Positions 4,456 through 19,799 of a DNA stretch of 19,799 bases are shown piece after piece; the first letter of the stretch is position 1, and every line of letters starts with the position of its first letter. The notes under the pieces were generated by a model that saw only the letters and a list, made by a program, of their open reading frames with translations, was not told the origin of the DNA and did not search any database. The position numbers and the translations under genes are program-made. The DNA is from an uncultured Oscillospiraceae bacterium (GTDB lineage Bacteria > Bacillota > Clostridia > Oscillospirales > Acutalibacteraceae), in assembly GCA_900546735.1 (NCBI GenBank), contig URDW01000019.1, positions 1 through 19,799 on the forward strand, given 5' to 3'.

Positions 4456-5913
4456 TTATTCTGCGCGCTCCTGCGCCTGCCCGGCGGCATTTGCCGCATG
4501 GCGTTCGGCCAGCTCCGCCTCTATCTTCTGCTTTTCGGCCTTATTGTCCTTAATGAACACGAACGGGATCAGGTACAAAAACGACGCCAGCGCCGGCAGC
4601 AGCATGAAAAGCGGCCACTGTGCATTCAAAAAGGTTTCGGTCTGCCGGGGCAGCTCGGCGTCAAAATGCAGCGCCGTAAAAATTGCGCCGAACAAAAAGC
4701 TTTTGAGCGCCTCGGTCATTTTGCTGGTCAGGTTCTGCAGCGAGAACGTGATGCCCTCCTTGCGCTTGCCGGTCTTCCACTCCATGTAGTCGATGGAGTC
4801 GCTCAAAAGCGCCTTTTGCGCAATGCCGATCAGCGTGATCGGAATGTTGCCGACGGCCATCAGCGCAATGACAAAAAGCATCTGCGCCGGCGTGTCAAAC
4901 CCGATGAAATACGCAATGACGCGCAGAAGCACGTTGCCGCCCTGCGCCAGGATGACAAGCTTTTTCATGCTGCCGACACGGTCGGCGATGCGCACGGCGA
5001 AAAACATGCTGACCGCGCCGAAAACATTGATCAAAATGCCGTAGACCGTCTGCGCCGTTTCGCCGTTCATCGTAAACGAGCCGATGTTGACCTCTACACA
5101 GTATTTGAAATAGTAGATCCACGGGATCGCGCCGGAGATGGAATTGCTCAGCTGCGCCAAAATCAGAAGCAGCAGCGTGCGGTTGTAACGGATCTCTTTC
5201 AGATCCTCGAGCAGCGACTGCCTTTCGGGCTGCACAAACGCCACGCGCTCCTTGGTTTTCATGGCGAGGATGGAAACCAGCTCACCGCCGAGGCCGAAAA
5301 GAATGGCGCAAAGCAGCAGCATCTGCCGCTCGCTCATGCCCACAGCCGTGCGCAGGCCGAGCAAAAACGGCACGGCGCCCACGATGGCCCCGCCGGCGCT
5401 GGCGCCGATATTGATCCACTGCGACACGCGCGCCCGCTCGCCGGAATGCGGCGTGATGAGCGACATCATGCCCCACAGCGCCACATCCTGGAACGAATAC
5501 GTCATGTCCCACGCGATGTAAACGAAAAAGATCAGCAAAAGCGCGGCCGTTTCGTTCAGGCCGAAATCCACGAACAGCAGCGCCGTCAAAAGCCCGATGA
5601 CGACGGCCAGTTTGCCCAAATACGGGTGCAGCTTGTTGCCGTTTTTAAACTTGTGCCGGTCGATCAGCGTGCCCACGACCGGGTCGTTGACCGCGTCCCA
5701 CACGCGCACCACGCCCATAACCGTGCCGGTTTTGCCGGAAGAGATGAACAGCACGTTCGTCATAAAATAGTTCAGCCACTGGCTGACCATGCCGAACGAG
5801 GCGTTTTGCCCGAAGAGCGCCGCCGAGTAGGCAAAGAGCTCGCGGTTCGGCACATAGCCGTCCTCCGCCTCCTTGCTGAAAAAGAAGCGGATGGGATTTT
5901 GCAGTTTTTTCAT
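4456..5913 (-). CDS. GPH-family (MelB-like) sugar:cation symporter
   Basis: This roughly 485-residue protein is strongly hydrophobic, with about 12 membrane segments, and belongs to the glycoside-pentoside-hexuronide:cation symporter family within MFS. The family landmark WDAVNDPVVGTLID lies near residues 72-85, with the aspartates equivalent to the cation/sugar site of MelB. A DSIDYMEWKTGKRKEG loop is also typical of the family. The C-terminus is charged and Ala/Glu/Lys-rich. ATG at 5911-5913 is taken as the start, with AAGGAAGGCGG upstream; GTG at 5917-5919 is an alternative two codons earlier. It has its own promoter (5960-5988) and terminator (4321-4348), so it is a single-gene unit. The transported sugar cannot be named. 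Confidence 0.92.
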   Translation of the reverse strand: MKKLQNPIRFFFSKEAEDGYVPNRELFAYSAALFGQNASFGMVSQWLNYFMTNVLFISSGKTGTVMGVVRVWDAVNDPVVGTLIDRHKFKNGNKLHPYLGKLAVVIGLLTALLFVDFGLNETAALLLIFFVYIAWDMTYSFQDVALWGMMSLITPHSGERARVSQWINIGASAGGAIVGAVPFLLGLRTAVGMSERQMLLLCAILFGLGGELVSILAMKTKERVAFVQPERQSLLEDLKEIRYNRTLLLLILAQLSNSISGAIPWIYYFKYCVEVNIGSFTMNGETAQTVYGILINVFGAVSMFFAVRIADRVGSMKKLVILAQGGNVLLRVIAYFIGFDTPAQMLFVIALMAVGNIPITLIGIAQKALLSDSIDYMEWKTGKRKEGITFSLQNLTSKMTEALKSFLFGAIFTALHFDAELPRQTETFLNAQWPLFMLLPALASFLYLIPFVFIKDNKAEKQKIEAELAERHAANAAGQAQERAE

Positions 5914-6284: not shown

Positions 6285-6314
6285 CCCCCTAGGTACTGCC
6301 CCCGAACAAAGACA

Positions 6315-6360
6315 AAAAACGCAGAAAAACCGCGCAGCTGTGCGGTTTTTCTGCGTTTTT
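6315..6360. terminator. Long near-perfect palindromic terminator
   Basis: The 46-base segment is almost a perfect palindrome centred at 6337/6338. Arms begin AAAAACGCAG and end CTGCGTTTTT, with an inner ACCGC/GCGGT stem. T tracts lie on both strands. It terminates in both directions and is the first good minus-strand terminator after the gene ending at 6515. Confidence 0.8.
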
Positions 6361-8178: not shown

Positions 8179-8214
8179 CACACAAAATTTTTGCAAAGCA
8201 AACCTTTTGCGTGG
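8179..8214 (-). repeat. Repeat-family hairpin at the rubrerythrin ribosome-binding region
   Basis: On the minus strand this reads CCACGCAAAAGGTTTGC, then a variant of the second arm ending TTTTGTGTG, then CAGGGGAGG. It is a diverged copy of the CCACGC-type hairpin at 19247, 19523 and 19762. In each case a purine-rich GGAG stretch follows. Here that stretch lies about 15 bases before the rubrerythrin start, so the repeat may form the gene's 5' leader. Confidence 0.55.
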
Positions 8215-8347: not shown

Positions 8348-8470
8348 TTATTCGCCGAAATATCTTTTCAAAAGACCCTCAAAAGCCTTGCCGTGGCGTC
8401 GTCGGCGCAAGTTCCATATCATTCGCGATGCCTTTTGTTTATACTTAAGCAAAAGGCATCTCTCATTCAC
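8348..8470 (-). pseudogene. Rubrerythrin C-terminal fragment fused in frame to a repeat-encoded start
   Basis: Minus-strand translation of about 8348-8395 gives [15 protein letters not shown] and a stop. These are exactly the last 15 residues (164-178) of the rubrerythrin at 8570-9106. Five codons differ in bases (Gly, Glu, Leu, Leu, Lys) and all five changes are silent. Reading upstream in the same frame, the open frame passes through the structured repeat to a GTG at 8468-8470. That GTG has GGAGAGGAGG nine bases before it, giving a 40-residue frame starting MNERCLLLKYK. The simplest view is the tail of a former rubrerythrin paralogue overwritten by the repeat. A small expressed fusion peptide cannot be excluded. 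Confidence 0.6.
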
Positions 8471-8522
8471 TCCACTGCGCCTCCTCTCCCCAAAAAGCTT
8501 TGCTGCGCAAATCTTTTCGGGG
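8404..8522 (-). repeat. Structured intergenic repeat (unit 2)
   Basis: On the minus strand the unit has a palindromic hairpin (8488-8522, arms CCCC...GGGG) and the linker GGAGAGGAGG (8480-8489). Then comes outer stem P1 GGCGCA/TGCGCC (8476-8481 with 8404-8409) and an 11-bp inner stem P2 GATGCCTTTTG/CAAAAGGCATC (8450-8460 with 8427-8437). Order and spacings match the units at 19377-19497 and 19523-19632, while both stems differ by compensated changes. It sits between two rubrerythrin genes. Confidence 0.75.
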
Positions 8523-8569
8523 ACCCCGCGAAGCCCGCACTGGGCCTTTTAGCTATTTACGCTTTTTAA

Positions 8570-9106
8570 TTATTCGCCGAAATATCTCTTCAGCAGACCT
8601 TCAAAAGCCTTACCGTGACGGGCTTCGTCTCTTGCCATTTCATGCACGGTGTCATGGATGGCGTCCAGACCCTCTTCCTTTGCACGCTTGGCAAGGTCGG
8701 TCTTGCCCTGGGTCGCGCCGTTTTCAGCGGCAACGCGCATTTCCAGGTTCTTTTTCGTAGAATCGGTCAGCACTTCGCCGAGCATTTCCGCAAATTTGGC
8801 AGCGTGCTCCGCCTCTTCATAAGCGGCCTTTTCCCAATAAAGACCGATTTCCGGATAGCCTTCGCGGTGCGCGACTCTGGCCATGGCCAGGTACATGCCG
8901 ACTTCAGAGCATTCGCCGTTGAAGTTGTCGCGCAGACCCTGCACGATGTCCTCCGGCACGCCGTCGATGATGCCGACTTTATGCTCAGCAGCCCAAACGG
9001 TCTGGCCGGCTTCGCGGACCTTCATTTTTGCTTTGCAGATCGGGCAGATCTCGATCGGTTCGTCTGTTTCGTACCCGCAAACGGGGCAATAGTATTTTTT
9101 CGCCAT
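8570..9106 (-). CDS. Rubrerythrin with N-terminal rubredoxin domain (reverse rubrerythrin)
   Basis: The 178-residue protein has the two rubrerythrin domains in reverse order. A rubredoxin-like knot comes first (C7, C10, C21, C24) and a ferritin-like domain follows (about 40-178). The di-iron motifs are E65 in the first helix, E98-x-x-H101 (EEAEH) and E161-x-x-H164 (DEARH). Such reverse rubrerythrins act as NADH-linked peroxidases in clostridia and are typically PerR-controlled. The ATG at 9106 has AAAGGAG eight bases upstream. It starts 22 bases after the perR-like gene stops, so the two form an operon. Its last 15 codons are duplicated at 8348-8395. No strong terminator follows; a weak GCCC/GGGC hairpin lies near 8531-8546. 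Confidence 0.93.
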
Positions 9107-14504: not shown

Positions 14505-16094
14505 TTATGTGCCCGACGCGCCGTTTGCACCGGCTGCCTCGGCCTTGGCCGCTGCGGCAAGCGCATTCAGCTCTTCGGCCTCTTTTCTGGCCTTTTCCTC
14601 GCGGAAAGCCTTCAGTTTGGCCGCCTGAGATTTTTCGTCGAACTTATAGAAAAACATCGGGATAGTCTGCAGCAGCAGTCCAATGGCGCCGAACGCCGTC
14701 AGCAGGAAGAAGATGACGTTCAAAAGCATGGTGTAATCCACACCGCCGGAGACGAACGACTGGGTGGGGCTTTGGATCAGCGGCTGGGTCAGGTTGTTCG
14801 TAAGCGCCGTCATTTTGTCCACATTGTAGCCGAACGCATCGACCACATTCAGAAGCAGCGCGTTGAACAGCGCCACCGAGATCTGGCTAATCAGGCTCTG
14901 GAACGAGAACACGGTGCCCTCCAGGCGCTTGCCCGTGCGCATTTCCAGGTCTTCCACCACATCGGAGAACATGGCGACGGTCAGCACCGTCATGATGCCC
15001 ACCGGGAAGTTGGTGAAGAAGCGCAGGATCATGTAAGTGACCGCGCCGGCAAACGTGTTGTACGGCACGATCCAGATGCCGATCACAAAGCAGAGGATGT
15101 CGGCCGCAATGCCGATGACAGAAGTGCCGATCCACAGCGTTTTCTTGTCCATCTTTTTCAGGAACAGCGGAATAAGCGCCATCGACAGCATGTACGAAAT
15201 GCCGCTGCCGATCTGCAGAAGCGGGGTCAAAAGGCCCTCGCTCGTCAGCTGCAGCGAAATGCCGAACGTGTTTTGGATCCAGGCACACAGTTCGTCAATG
15301 GGCAGCACGCCGATGCAGTTCCACTTCGCAAAATACGGCAGGAACATGGCGCCGATGTTGACGATGGACGAAAAGAACATGGCGATCGTCAGAACGATGA
15401 ACTTTTTGTCCTTGAACACGACCTTCAGGCCCTCGGTATACTTTTCTTTCTTCGGGGGGAGCTTGATCTTTTCCTTAAAGCCGAAGGCCGAAAAGAACAT
15501 CGGCACCGCACCGAGCGTGGCAAAAATCAGCGCCGAGAAGAAGTAGCCCTCTTTCTGCTGCTCACGCCCCCAGAGGCCGGCCACCGTAAAGAACAGCAGC
15601 GACGGCAGAATGGAGCCGAGCGAGCCGAGGATGTTGCTCCACGACAAAGCCTTTACACGCAGCTTATCCTCCGGGAACACGAGCGGCGCAAGGCCCTTGT
15701 TCGGAATGTCGAGCGCCGTATAGATCGTGTAGTACAGCAGGTACGCAACAATGGCATAGATGAAGTTGCCGGTCTCGCCGAAATCGACCGGCGCAAACAG
15801 CAGCGCCGTGACCAGGATCAGCGGGCCGGACATCCAAAACACATACGGCCGGCACTTGCCCCAGCGGGTGTTCGTTTTGTCCACGATCATGCCCATCAGC
15901 GGGTCGTTGACCGCGTCCCAAACCTTGGTGACGGCCAGCATGATGCCCGTCATCGACAGCGACAGACCGAGCACGTCGGTAAAATACATGTTCAGCGCCG
16001 TACTGATGATGCCGTAGACCGTGCTCATGCCGAACGGCAAAAGCGAGTAGGCAAGGATCTCGCGCGTGGATTTCATTTTAAATATGTTCTGCAA
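14505..16094 (-). CDS. GPH-family (MelB-like) sugar:cation symporter
   Basis: The 529-residue protein has about 12 hydrophobic segments and the clear GPH signatures. These are VWDAVNDPLMGMIVDKT at 58-74 (D60, D64), followed by RWGKCRPY at 77-84, and EMRTGKRLEGTVFS in the second half. A long charged, Ala/Glu/Lys-rich C-terminal tail would lie in the cytoplasm. No ATG has a ribosome site. TTG at 16092-16094 is chosen because GAGGGGG lies seven bases upstream; the ATG at 16074-16076 is 25 bases away. It lies between the GH30-type hydrolase and the lipoprotein in a same-strand cluster, so it is the likely importer for the glycan degraded by this locus. Confidence 0.93.
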   Translation of the reverse strand: MQNIFKMKSTREILAYSLLPFGMSTVYGIISTALNMYFTDVLGLSLSMTGIMLAVTKVWDAVNDPLMGMIVDKTNTRWGKCRPYVFWMSGPLILVTALLFAPVDFGETGNFIYAIVAYLLYYTIYTALDIPNKGLAPLVFPEDKLRVKALSWSNILGSLGSILPSLLFFTVAGLWGREQQKEGYFFSALIFATLGAVPMFFSAFGFKEKIKLPPKKEKYTEGLKVVFKDKKFIVLTIAMFFSSIVNIGAMFLPYFAKWNCIGVLPIDELCAWIQNTFGISLQLTSEGLLTPLLQIGSGISYMLSMALIPLFLKKMDKKTLWIGTSVIGIAADILCFVIGIWIVPYNTFAGAVTYMILRFFTNFPVGIMTVLTVAMFSDVVEDLEMRTGKRLEGTVFSFQSLISQISVALFNALLLNVVDAFGYNVDKMTALTNNLTQPLIQSPTQSFVSGGVDYTMLLNVIFFLLTAFGAIGLLLQTIPMFFYKFDEKSQAAKLKAFREEKARKEAEELNALAAAAKAEAAGANGASGT

Positions 16095-19246: not shown

Positions 19247-19364
19247 CCACGCAAAAGGTTTGCACAGCAAAGATTTTGCGTGGAGAGGAGGCGCGACGGC
19301 GTGAGTGAGAGACGACTTTTCGTTTCAGTATAAAAAAAGTCGTCGCGAACGATACAAAGTCCGT
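19247..19364 (+). repeat. Structured intergenic repeat (unit 3)
   Basis: The hairpin CCACGCAAAA...TTTTGCGTGG (19247-19283) has an inner TTTGC/GCAAA stem. It is followed by GGAGAGGAGG (19282-19291) and a linker ending GTGAGTGAGA. Inner stem P2 is GACGACTTTT/AAAAGTCGTC (19311-19320 with 19335-19344), followed by CGCGAACGATAC. The outer stem is degenerate in this copy. The loop shares AGTATAAA with unit 2. Confidence 0.75.
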
Positions 19365-19376
19365 AAAAAACGGAGC

Positions 19377-19497
19377 CCCCAAAAAAGTTTGCTTCGCAAA
19401 CTTTTTCTGGGGAGAGGAGGAACAGTGGAATGAGCGCACTTCCGACTTTTTTCAAAAATAAAAAAGTCGGAACAAGCGATATGGAACTTGTTCCGAC
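19377..19497 (+). repeat. Structured intergenic repeat (unit 4)
   Basis: The hairpin CCCCAAAAAAGTTTGC/GCAAACTTTTTCTGGGG (19377-19412) is followed by GGAGAGGAGG (19411-19420). Outer stem GGAACA/TGTTCC (19419-19424 with 19489-19494) encloses a 13-bp inner stem TTCCGACTTTTTT/AAAAAAGTCGGAA (19440-19452 with 19460-19472). The 3' arm of P2 can also pair with 19487-19497, giving a mutually exclusive fold. Confidence 0.8.
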
Positions 19498-19591
19498 GAT
19501 GGAGTGGCTGTCTTTAGCAATGCCACGCAAAAGGTTTGCGCAGCAAAGATTTTGCGTGGAGAGGAGGAACAGTGGAGCGAGCGAGAGATGA
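19430..19591 (+). CDS. Doubtful 53-residue open frame starting inside repeat unit 4
   Basis: The ATG at 19430 lies nine bases after GGAGAGGAGG, a good ribosome site by spacing. The frame gives MSALPTFFKNKKVGTSDMEL and continues through the next hairpin to a TGA at 19589-19591. The same frame restarts at 19720 in the shortened copy with MSALPTMEWLSLAMPRKRF and runs off the window. The protein is basic and without a recognisable domain, and its bases are fully accounted for by the repeat hairpins. I think it is more likely a by-product of the repeat than a gene. Confidence 0.2.
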   Translation: MSALPTFFKNKKVGTSDMELVPTMEWLSLAMPRKRFAQQRFCVERRNSGASER

Positions 19592-19632
19592 CTTTTGTAA
19601 AAAGTCATCTCGAACGATACGGAACTTGTTCC
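19523..19632 (+). repeat. Structured intergenic repeat (unit 5)
   Basis: The hairpin CCACGC...GCGTGG (19523-19559) and GGAGAGGAGG (19558-19567) are followed by outer stem GGAACA/TGTTCC (19566-19571 with 19627-19632). A perfect 12-bp inner stem GAGATGACTTTT/AAAAGTCATCTC (19585-19596 with 19600-19611) has a 3-base loop. Spacings between stems match unit 4 to within about two bases. Confidence 0.8.
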
Positions 19633-19664
19633 GACGAAGCGATACGGAACTTGCAAAAAACGGG

Positions 19665-19799
19665 GCCCCGGGGAAAGTTTGCACCGCAAACTTTTTCTGG
19701 GGAGAGGAGGAACAGTGGAATGAGCGCACTTCCGACGATGGAGTGGCTGTCTTTAGCAATGCCACGCAAAAGGTTTGCGCAGCAAAGATTTTGCGTGGA
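19665..19799 (+). repeat. Structured intergenic repeat (unit 6, inner part deleted) and start of unit 7
   Basis: A CCCC...GGGG-type hairpin and GGAGAGGAGG (19701-19710) match unit 4, as do the bases to 19736. Compared with unit 4, exactly 51 bases are then missing between two copies of TTCCGAC. This removes the inner stem and the 3' side of the outer stem. The following 63 bases (19737-19799) are identical to 19498-19560 and contain the next CCACGC hairpin (19762-19798), where the window ends. Confidence 0.8.

Follow-up and report, generated by a model that had tools for sequence, protein, structure and literature searches.

A folded, dispersed repeat of Oscillospiraceae and related Clostridia, probably mobile and similar in kind to CGTC-tagged REPs and MITEs

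The analyzed stretch of 19,799 nucleotides from an uncultured Oscillospiraceae bacterium (contig URDW01000019.1, here called the window) carries copies of a structured element of about 115 bases, which is too short to carry an enzyme. A repeat search located the 5' hairpin of this element at seven places (about 8179, 8488, 19248, 19377, 19524, 19667, and 19763), and the following units and one further piece were delimited, with scores from the covariance model R1:

8179–8214, minus strand: unit 1, 5' hairpin only
8399–8527, minus strand: unit 2, complete element (R1 75.2 bits, 8399–8489)
19247–19373, plus strand: unit 3, 5' hairpin (19247–19283) and core (19282–19373) with a decayed outer stem (R1 38 bits)
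19372–19499, plus strand: unit 4, GGAG, then 5' hairpin (19376–19412) and core (19411–19499) ending GACGA (R1 69.7 bits)
19523–19637, plus strand: unit 5, 5' hairpin (19523–19559) and core (19558–19637) ending GACGA (R1 79.4 bits)
19638–19653, plus strand: piece AGCGATACGGAACTTG, abutting the GACGA of unit 5 and matching an inner stretch of unit 4
19667–19738, plus strand: unit 6, 5' hairpin and 5' half of the core (R1 23.8 bits)
19762–19799, plus strand: unit 7, 5' hairpin only, truncated by the window end

A sequence-only reading of the array had assigned one plan to every unit. The full plan was recovered by R1 in three units (19558–19637, 8399–8489, and 19411–19499), but not in the others: the outer stem of the unit at 19247 has decayed, that at 19667 has lost its 3' half (in comparison with unit 4, the part between two copies of TTCCGAC), and those at 8179 and 19762 consist of the 5' hairpin only. 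The same reading had correctly seen in the sequence that stems differ between units yet still pair, both sides changing together: P1 is GGAACA/TGTTCC in the units at 19376 and 19523 and GGCGCA/TGCGCC in the minus-strand unit at 8399–8527, and the arms of P2 change between units as it had described. The termini of unit 2, written on the plus strand, are GGGGACCCC at 8519–8527 for the 5' end, GGGG(T)CCCC, and TCGTC at 8399–8403 for the 3' end. Positions 19491–19560 and 19730–19799 are 100% identical; part of the array is a recent tandem copy, and the window units are therefore not all independent. RNA folding of four units gave z-scores of −4.9 to −6.9 relative to dinucleotide shuffles, single-stranded DNA folding of three units gave −7.2 to −8.3, and the linker pattern, with up to 3 mismatches, matched the window 4 times against a chance mean of 0.00. 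The array had no match in the plasmid and phage collections searched. Two other repeats lie in the window: a 50-base repeat (2–51 and 6309–6358, 80% identity) with a GCGGTTTTT stem, probably terminators, and a 68-base repeat (4706–4773 and 14869–14936, 75%) between two long minus-strand frames resembling transporter paralogues.

Further copies were fetched with the pattern GGAGAGGAGGNNCAGNGGANNGAG, which returned 3 loci from viral contigs and at least 120 from genome contigs; among the 80 titles displayed for the latter, the majority named Oscillospiraceae or other Clostridia. Of 124 pattern matches in the fetched loci, 101 had a recognizable right half (93 distinct copies and 8 repeats) and 23 did not, several of the latter being chance matches in unrelated organisms (L024, L025, L040, and L076 among them). 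Complete rows numbered 92, two of them window copies, and alignment A2 comprised 62 of 76 references. Conservation is partly by construction, since loci were fetched by an exact 5' pattern and rows were kept by a 3' pattern; in the 62-row alignment the fetching pattern dictates its own letters but leaves its N positions and the 3' side free.

One strand of the element forms two hairpins: a 5' stem-loop of free sequence followed, after AGAGGAGG, by a long irregular hairpin with tandem G.A steps between its helices. The order of parts is GGGGYCCCC (in most copies) and the 5' hairpin, AGAGGAGG, GGNNCAGYGGANNGAGYGAG, an inner hairpin, CGARNGATNNGNARCTTGNNCC, and a 3' end of GACG (CGTC on the other strand). 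GACG comes directly after P1 in 87 of 93 distinct copies, in a count that did not demand it. The 3' terminus is sharp; the 5' edge is looser and A/T-rich. P1 begins with a G-C pair, then has paired bases or a tandem G.A; several genomes instead have C-G as the outermost pair, both sides having changed (AGAGGACGAGC and GCGAGGACG). Beside this closing pair, at positions 10,11/82,83, the 62 aligned copies have GA/GA (26), GC/GC (20), GA/TC (12), GG/CC (3), or GC/GT (1), that is, tandem G.A in 26 and pairs in 36 (one with a G.U); among the 93 distinct copies, the same positions are tandem G.A in 47, paired in 43, and neither in 3. At 26,27/64,65 there is a second tandem G.A (47 of 62 copies have GA/GA), and every one of the 62 has G.A at 22-69 and A.G at 23-68, where the fetching pattern fixes the left partners. 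A reading of AGAGGAGG and a following ATG as Shine-Dalgarno sequence and start codon was rejected: the bases of the supposed start codon covary as part of a stem (AT, GT, AG, GG, GC, AC). In one genome (G007), one and the same additional hairpin interrupts the 5' hairpin loop at three loci (L206, L212, and L214), and copies in that genome are interspersed with other repeats (GTAGGGGCGGAT...ATCCGCCC and GTGGGGCGCGACGACC).

Covariation in the 62 cores bears out the suggestion of the sequence-only reading that structure is under selection. A 20-pair structure accounted for the alignment with 91.5% of cells paired, and 237 pair cells were changed on both sides, far beyond shuffles (80.2, sd 6.4), of which 0 of 500 reached that value; none of 500 reached the 49 further pair types either. 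The number of pairs with any double change (14) was not beyond shuffles in these copies, 63 of 500 reaching it. Structures slid by 1 to 3 columns left 33 to 47% of cells paired and 19 to 46 cells double-changed, and RNAalifold alone arrived at a closely similar set of helices that lacked pairs 10-83 and 11-82. With those two pairs excluded, G.U occupied 88 cells and A.C only 25 in the 62 copies, and the plus strand folded better than the minus strand in 62 of 62; the G.U excess and the better-folding plus strand show selection on one strand, either as RNA or as DNA in single-stranded form. These data show a fold kept by covariation and suited to one strand, in an alignment whose rows from related genomes are not independent events.

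The element is widespread in the family of G004, the genome of locus L036 (titled Flavonifractor): 79 of 120 sampled genomes had an R1 match at an E value of ≤1e-4, with up to 35 per genome, and in a sample of the phylum 5 of 299 genomes had a match, among them G004 and G080, which were also in the family sample; for these counts no more than 40 candidates were scored in each genome of the family (16 in the phylum sample), and R1 E values are rough. Eleven genomes chosen as locus holders had 3 to 28 pattern matches with up to 2 mismatches and none to the reversed pattern. The element was also carried by two phage scaffolds from human faeces (L259 and L260) and by RepA-MobV elements typed as conjugative or mobilizable, and at the phage locus L003 it lies between the portal and protease genes. 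Its orientation relative to the coding majority was 45:45 over 90 loci, counted with simple, uncurated open frames of which many are spurious, and relative to GC skew it was 50:36 over 86 loci.

Ten RNase P RNA genes contained the element (L036, L047, L054, L121, L157, L159, L160, L165, L166, and L167, with a weak match of 35 bits plus a weaker inverted piece in L165), on the same strand in all ten. It lies there between ACCGCC and GGTAAGGGTG, in a loop that we take to be P12. Of the long RNase P genes in the family sample, 20 were fetched (405 to 543 bases, compared with about 345 to 360 in many others); six had element matches and one more was borderline. The STRR repeats inserted in P12 of cyanobacterial RNase P RNA are short tandem heptamers; the likeness is that repeats are tolerated in the same loop of this RNA, whereas the element described here is structured and dispersed. 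Several unrelated insertions occupy the P12 loop of RNase P genes in the family of G004 (L155 to L174), and in L159 and L165 two inverted part copies face each other and would form one long BIME-like hairpin. In the three loci scanned next to tRNA genes (L027, L103, and L118), the bases after GACG are TGG, which is complementary to an encoded CCA and leads into the tRNA gene on the opposite strand. Five loci outside that scan (L051, L052, L065, L073, and L123) resemble these by appearance. At L072, a tmRNA begins at the base directly after the element.

Rfam had no match in the window and only RNase P and tRNA in 15 loci, so that, as to Rfam, the element belongs to no recognizable family, as had been supposed; a search of the element region of L043 at E values up to 5 returned only two lncRNA matches far below the gathering threshold. 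Among small repeats, BOX is of the MITE type, and the GTAG REPs and REPINs, with RAYT transposases, are tagged palindromes with many dispersed copies and one-strand hairpins. In size, lack of genes, dispersion, and folding the element resembles the MITEs ERIC, RUP, NEMIS, and BOX; unlike classical MITEs, it ends in GGGGYCCCC and GACG without terminal inverted repeats. As to short target duplications, its phage site has none. It differs from IS200/IS605-derived elements in having no fixed target tetra- or pentanucleotide beside one end. Like GTAG REPs and REPINs, it is tagged, dispersed, and able to form one-strand hairpins, but it lacks the GTAG tag, and no fetched Y1 gene was flanked by it. 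A paper by Di Nocera, De Gregorio, and Rocco (2013; PMC3733652), which lists ERIC, RUP, and NEMIS as MITEs, describes CGTC-tagged REPs, including Rickettsia RPE-4 and RPE-6 and Neisseria dRS3: these have stems of 8 to 9 bp, nearly always with A-T pairs first, loops of 4 to 5 bases, and mostly a CCA tail; they are reported from five phyla, in a text that contains neither the word Firmicutes nor “Clostridi”; and they are without a dedicated transposase, the tyrosine transposase genes of their carriers not being flanked by the repeat (PMC3733652). Shared with them are a palindromic repeat with CGTC at one end, complementary stem changes, occurrence as singles, dimers, and clusters, and copies within genes, whereas the body here is about 75 bases (GGNNCAGY.../...RCTTGNNCC) with tandem G.A steps, and a second hairpin and GGGGYCCCC are added. 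CGTC thus stands at the end of a stem-loop in both, but the 8- to 9-bp A-T-first stem, the loop of 4 to 5 bases, and a CCA-like tail are absent from the element. Because the tag agrees while stem, loop, tail, and reported host range differ, we regard it as similar in kind to the CGTC-tagged REPs and not as a member of them. No description of such a repeat in Oscillospiraceae or Clostridia was found among the matches listed from the open-licence PubMed Central literature.

Two carrier sites have relatives without the element. Eight relatives of the phage site in L003, about 77 to 83% alike, lack it; the insertion point lies between CTTCTG and AAAAATGCGGG, with no visible target loss or duplication, to within a base at such likeness. 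In a RepA-MobV element, one copy is present in each of four loci (L064, L066, L082, and L099), and another lies about 20 bp away in opposite orientation in a Subdoligranulum plasmid stretch (L256); a Campylobacter plasmid stretch (L258) is an empty site, and L257, which has a small deletion of its own, also lacks the element. On the GGGG side of this site, 6 to 8 bases of the empty site are apparently replaced by 5 to 7 others. The candidate target site GACGA was rejected, being absent from the empty RepA-MobV site. Such empty sites in relatives argue that the element inserts, and the comparison of copies and empty sites on which this rests suggests a mobile element. Within G007, copies stand in several flanking contexts that switch near GGGG and GACGA; elsewhere, groups of copies lie within longer composite repeats that reach about 390 bp. 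Further empty sites were sought through a protein of L006 (no confirmed match), for L002 in phages (no match), and for L018, L033, and L007 in plasmids (one partial record each, nothing usable). Flank base counts revealed no fixed target sequence beside either end (54 and 23 copies on the 5' side, 88 on the 3' side). A target duplication is absent at the phage site, bases are replaced at the RepA-MobV site, and copies of gene ends of 51 to 103 bp occur elsewhere; one insertion mechanism does not yet explain all sites.

The copied gene ends adjoin the 3' terminus. In the window, 8348–8398 (minus strand) is a second copy, 88% identical, of the 3' end (8570–8620, minus strand) of a rubrerythrin-like gene at 8570–9106; it starts at the 3' terminus of unit 2, at a boundary that is ambiguous by 5 bases because the gene itself has GACGA there. 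Among the 120 rubrerythrin relatives listed, four have 96 to 99% identity and those from Clostridiales and Eubacterium 85 to 91%, which places the host in Clostridia. Using blast, a direct repeat between the two flanks was found for 8 of 68 copies and for 3 of 64 control splits, a count that is weak on its own; in 5 of the 8, the repeat starts at the first base past the element, and in those 5 the bases before the repeat in the left copy differ from the element end. With the match forced to start at the first base after the element, 5 of 73 copies scored at least 20, and mismatched control pairs gave 0. A second control (the copy's own right flank from base 25 on) scored at least 20 in 4 of 73, and at score 8 it gave 11, versus 9 observed and 2.9 expected; long copied blocks are expected to give it high scores, so it is no test of the precise starting point. 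The cases come from five gene contexts: L005 and L112 (same gene end), L009, L016 (with L029, same gene), L107, and L017, the last of which lay outside the forced-start test. In these cases the copied block is the gene end including the stop codon, with a terminator-like stem in several, and the element's 3' terminus is the breakpoint throughout. The order in L107 (gene end, element, gene end, element start) indicates a tandem copy of the gene end plus the element, and in L016 and L029 the flank before the element is duplicated too, so that insertion into a spare gene end fits equally. Because copied gene ends start at the 3' terminus in the window as well as in five gene contexts, this end of the element looks active.

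Structure and dispersion are established, and the element is probably a dispersed, non-autonomous mobile repeat of Oscillospiraceae and related Clostridia, of a new kind like CGTC-tagged REPs and MITEs. A mobilized non-autonomous repeat was one of three options offered by the sequence-only reading, and it is the best supported of them (many copies per genome, empty sites, and no orientation preference). The folded single strand, DNA or RNA, would be the form recognized by a mobilizing enzyme encoded elsewhere, the 3' GACG end would be the one joined to the target, and copies would persist in tolerant places: intergenic gaps, RNA loops, and gene ends. A bolder proposal, quite unlikely in our estimate, is that a folded parasite uses its 3' end to move: a single-stranded copy, whether RNA or DNA, would be joined to the target by its GACG terminus, with a preference for the 3' ends of tRNAs and genes and an ability to drag along or duplicate a gene end. 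We know of no SINE-like or one-ended mechanism for small bacterial repeats.

No autonomous copy, with a gene between two halves, was seen in loci L001 to L124, and two enzymes were considered. Mobilization in trans, on single-stranded DNA, of a REP by a Y1 (HUH) transposase of the RAYT or IS200/IS605 type would be a sub-case of the non-autonomous repeat that names the enzyme; we think it unlikely. The hairpin near each end, the strand-specific fold, and the phage-site insertion without target duplication favor it, as does the occurrence of Y1 genes in 35 of 79 element-bearing against 11 of 41 element-free genomes (Fisher p 0.08, uncorrected), but none of 41 fetched Y1 loci (30 plus 11 added, a few overlapping, a subset of the listed Y1 matches) carried the element within about 1.5 kb, neither end adjoins a fixed target, and only three of nine genomes with at least 20 copies had a Y1 match (E value ≤0.001), leaving six without in assemblies that may be incomplete. 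A SINE-like retroposon, in which reverse transcription of an RNA copy would begin at a nick from the 3' end of that copy, would account for a precise 3' and a loose 5' junction such as those observed and could copy neighboring sequence, as where duplicated gene ends begin at GACGA. Twelve copy-rich genomes, hand-picked from the family sample, held 132 matches to the 3' half and 114 to the 5' half (reversed-pattern controls, 0 and 6), but this difference may be due simply to the sensitivity of the patterns. In G034 and G107, two of these twelve, half-pattern matches were almost absent, although R1 gave 34 and 35 matches. Of the 79 element-bearing genomes, 30 had RVT_1 reverse transcriptase genes, as did 8 of the 41 element-free ones (p 0.04, uncorrected), an association that, like that of Y1, is probably confounded with genome size and kinship, and as an indication of the enzyme it was rejected as weak and confounded. 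Six of the nine genomes with at least 20 copies had no RVT_1 match (three had one), and no poly-A or other known retroposon tail was seen in the copies inspected; a retroposon is accordingly highly improbable. Neither Y1 nor RVT_1 was found in 9 of 20 genomes with at least 10 copies, which is weak evidence because assemblies may be incomplete.

Two other explanations were weighed. Old copies might have multiplied, with no present transposition, only by tandem duplication, unequal exchange, and phage or conjugative transfer; the arrays in the window, L112, and G103, the tandem copy of gene end plus element in L107, and the composite repeats that G057 and G099 carry (about 380 bp) are all consistent with this, and yet the differing flanks of copies within G007, the presence of the element in the L003 portal gene and its absence from eight relatives, and the opposite-orientation insertions in one RepA-MobV element make it a very improbable account. 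A structured RNA acting in place, either a cis element of mRNAs (terminator, processing, or stability) or a small RNA, multiplied because it is useful, would fit the strong one-strand covariation, the G.U bias, and the same-strand position inside RNase P RNA (10 of 10 genes checked). We nevertheless hold it to be very doubtful: orientation to coding strands is even (45:45), Rfam has no match, and flanks vary within one genome, switching near GGGG and GACGA, so that no shared promoter was seen to travel along.

If the element is the mobile repeat that it appears to be, the Oscillospiraceae, a major group of gut bacteria, gain an abundant mobile repeat that is absent from Rfam and that is found in essential RNAs, phages, and conjugative elements. 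The question left in 2013 (PMC3733652) of how CGTC-tagged repeats move without a transposase is revived and becomes testable, and the 3'-end mechanism, if true, could explain orphan CGTC repeats without transposase in other phyla. The covarying structure, the sharp 3' end, and the up to dozens of copies per genome define what a mobilizing enzyme must recognize.
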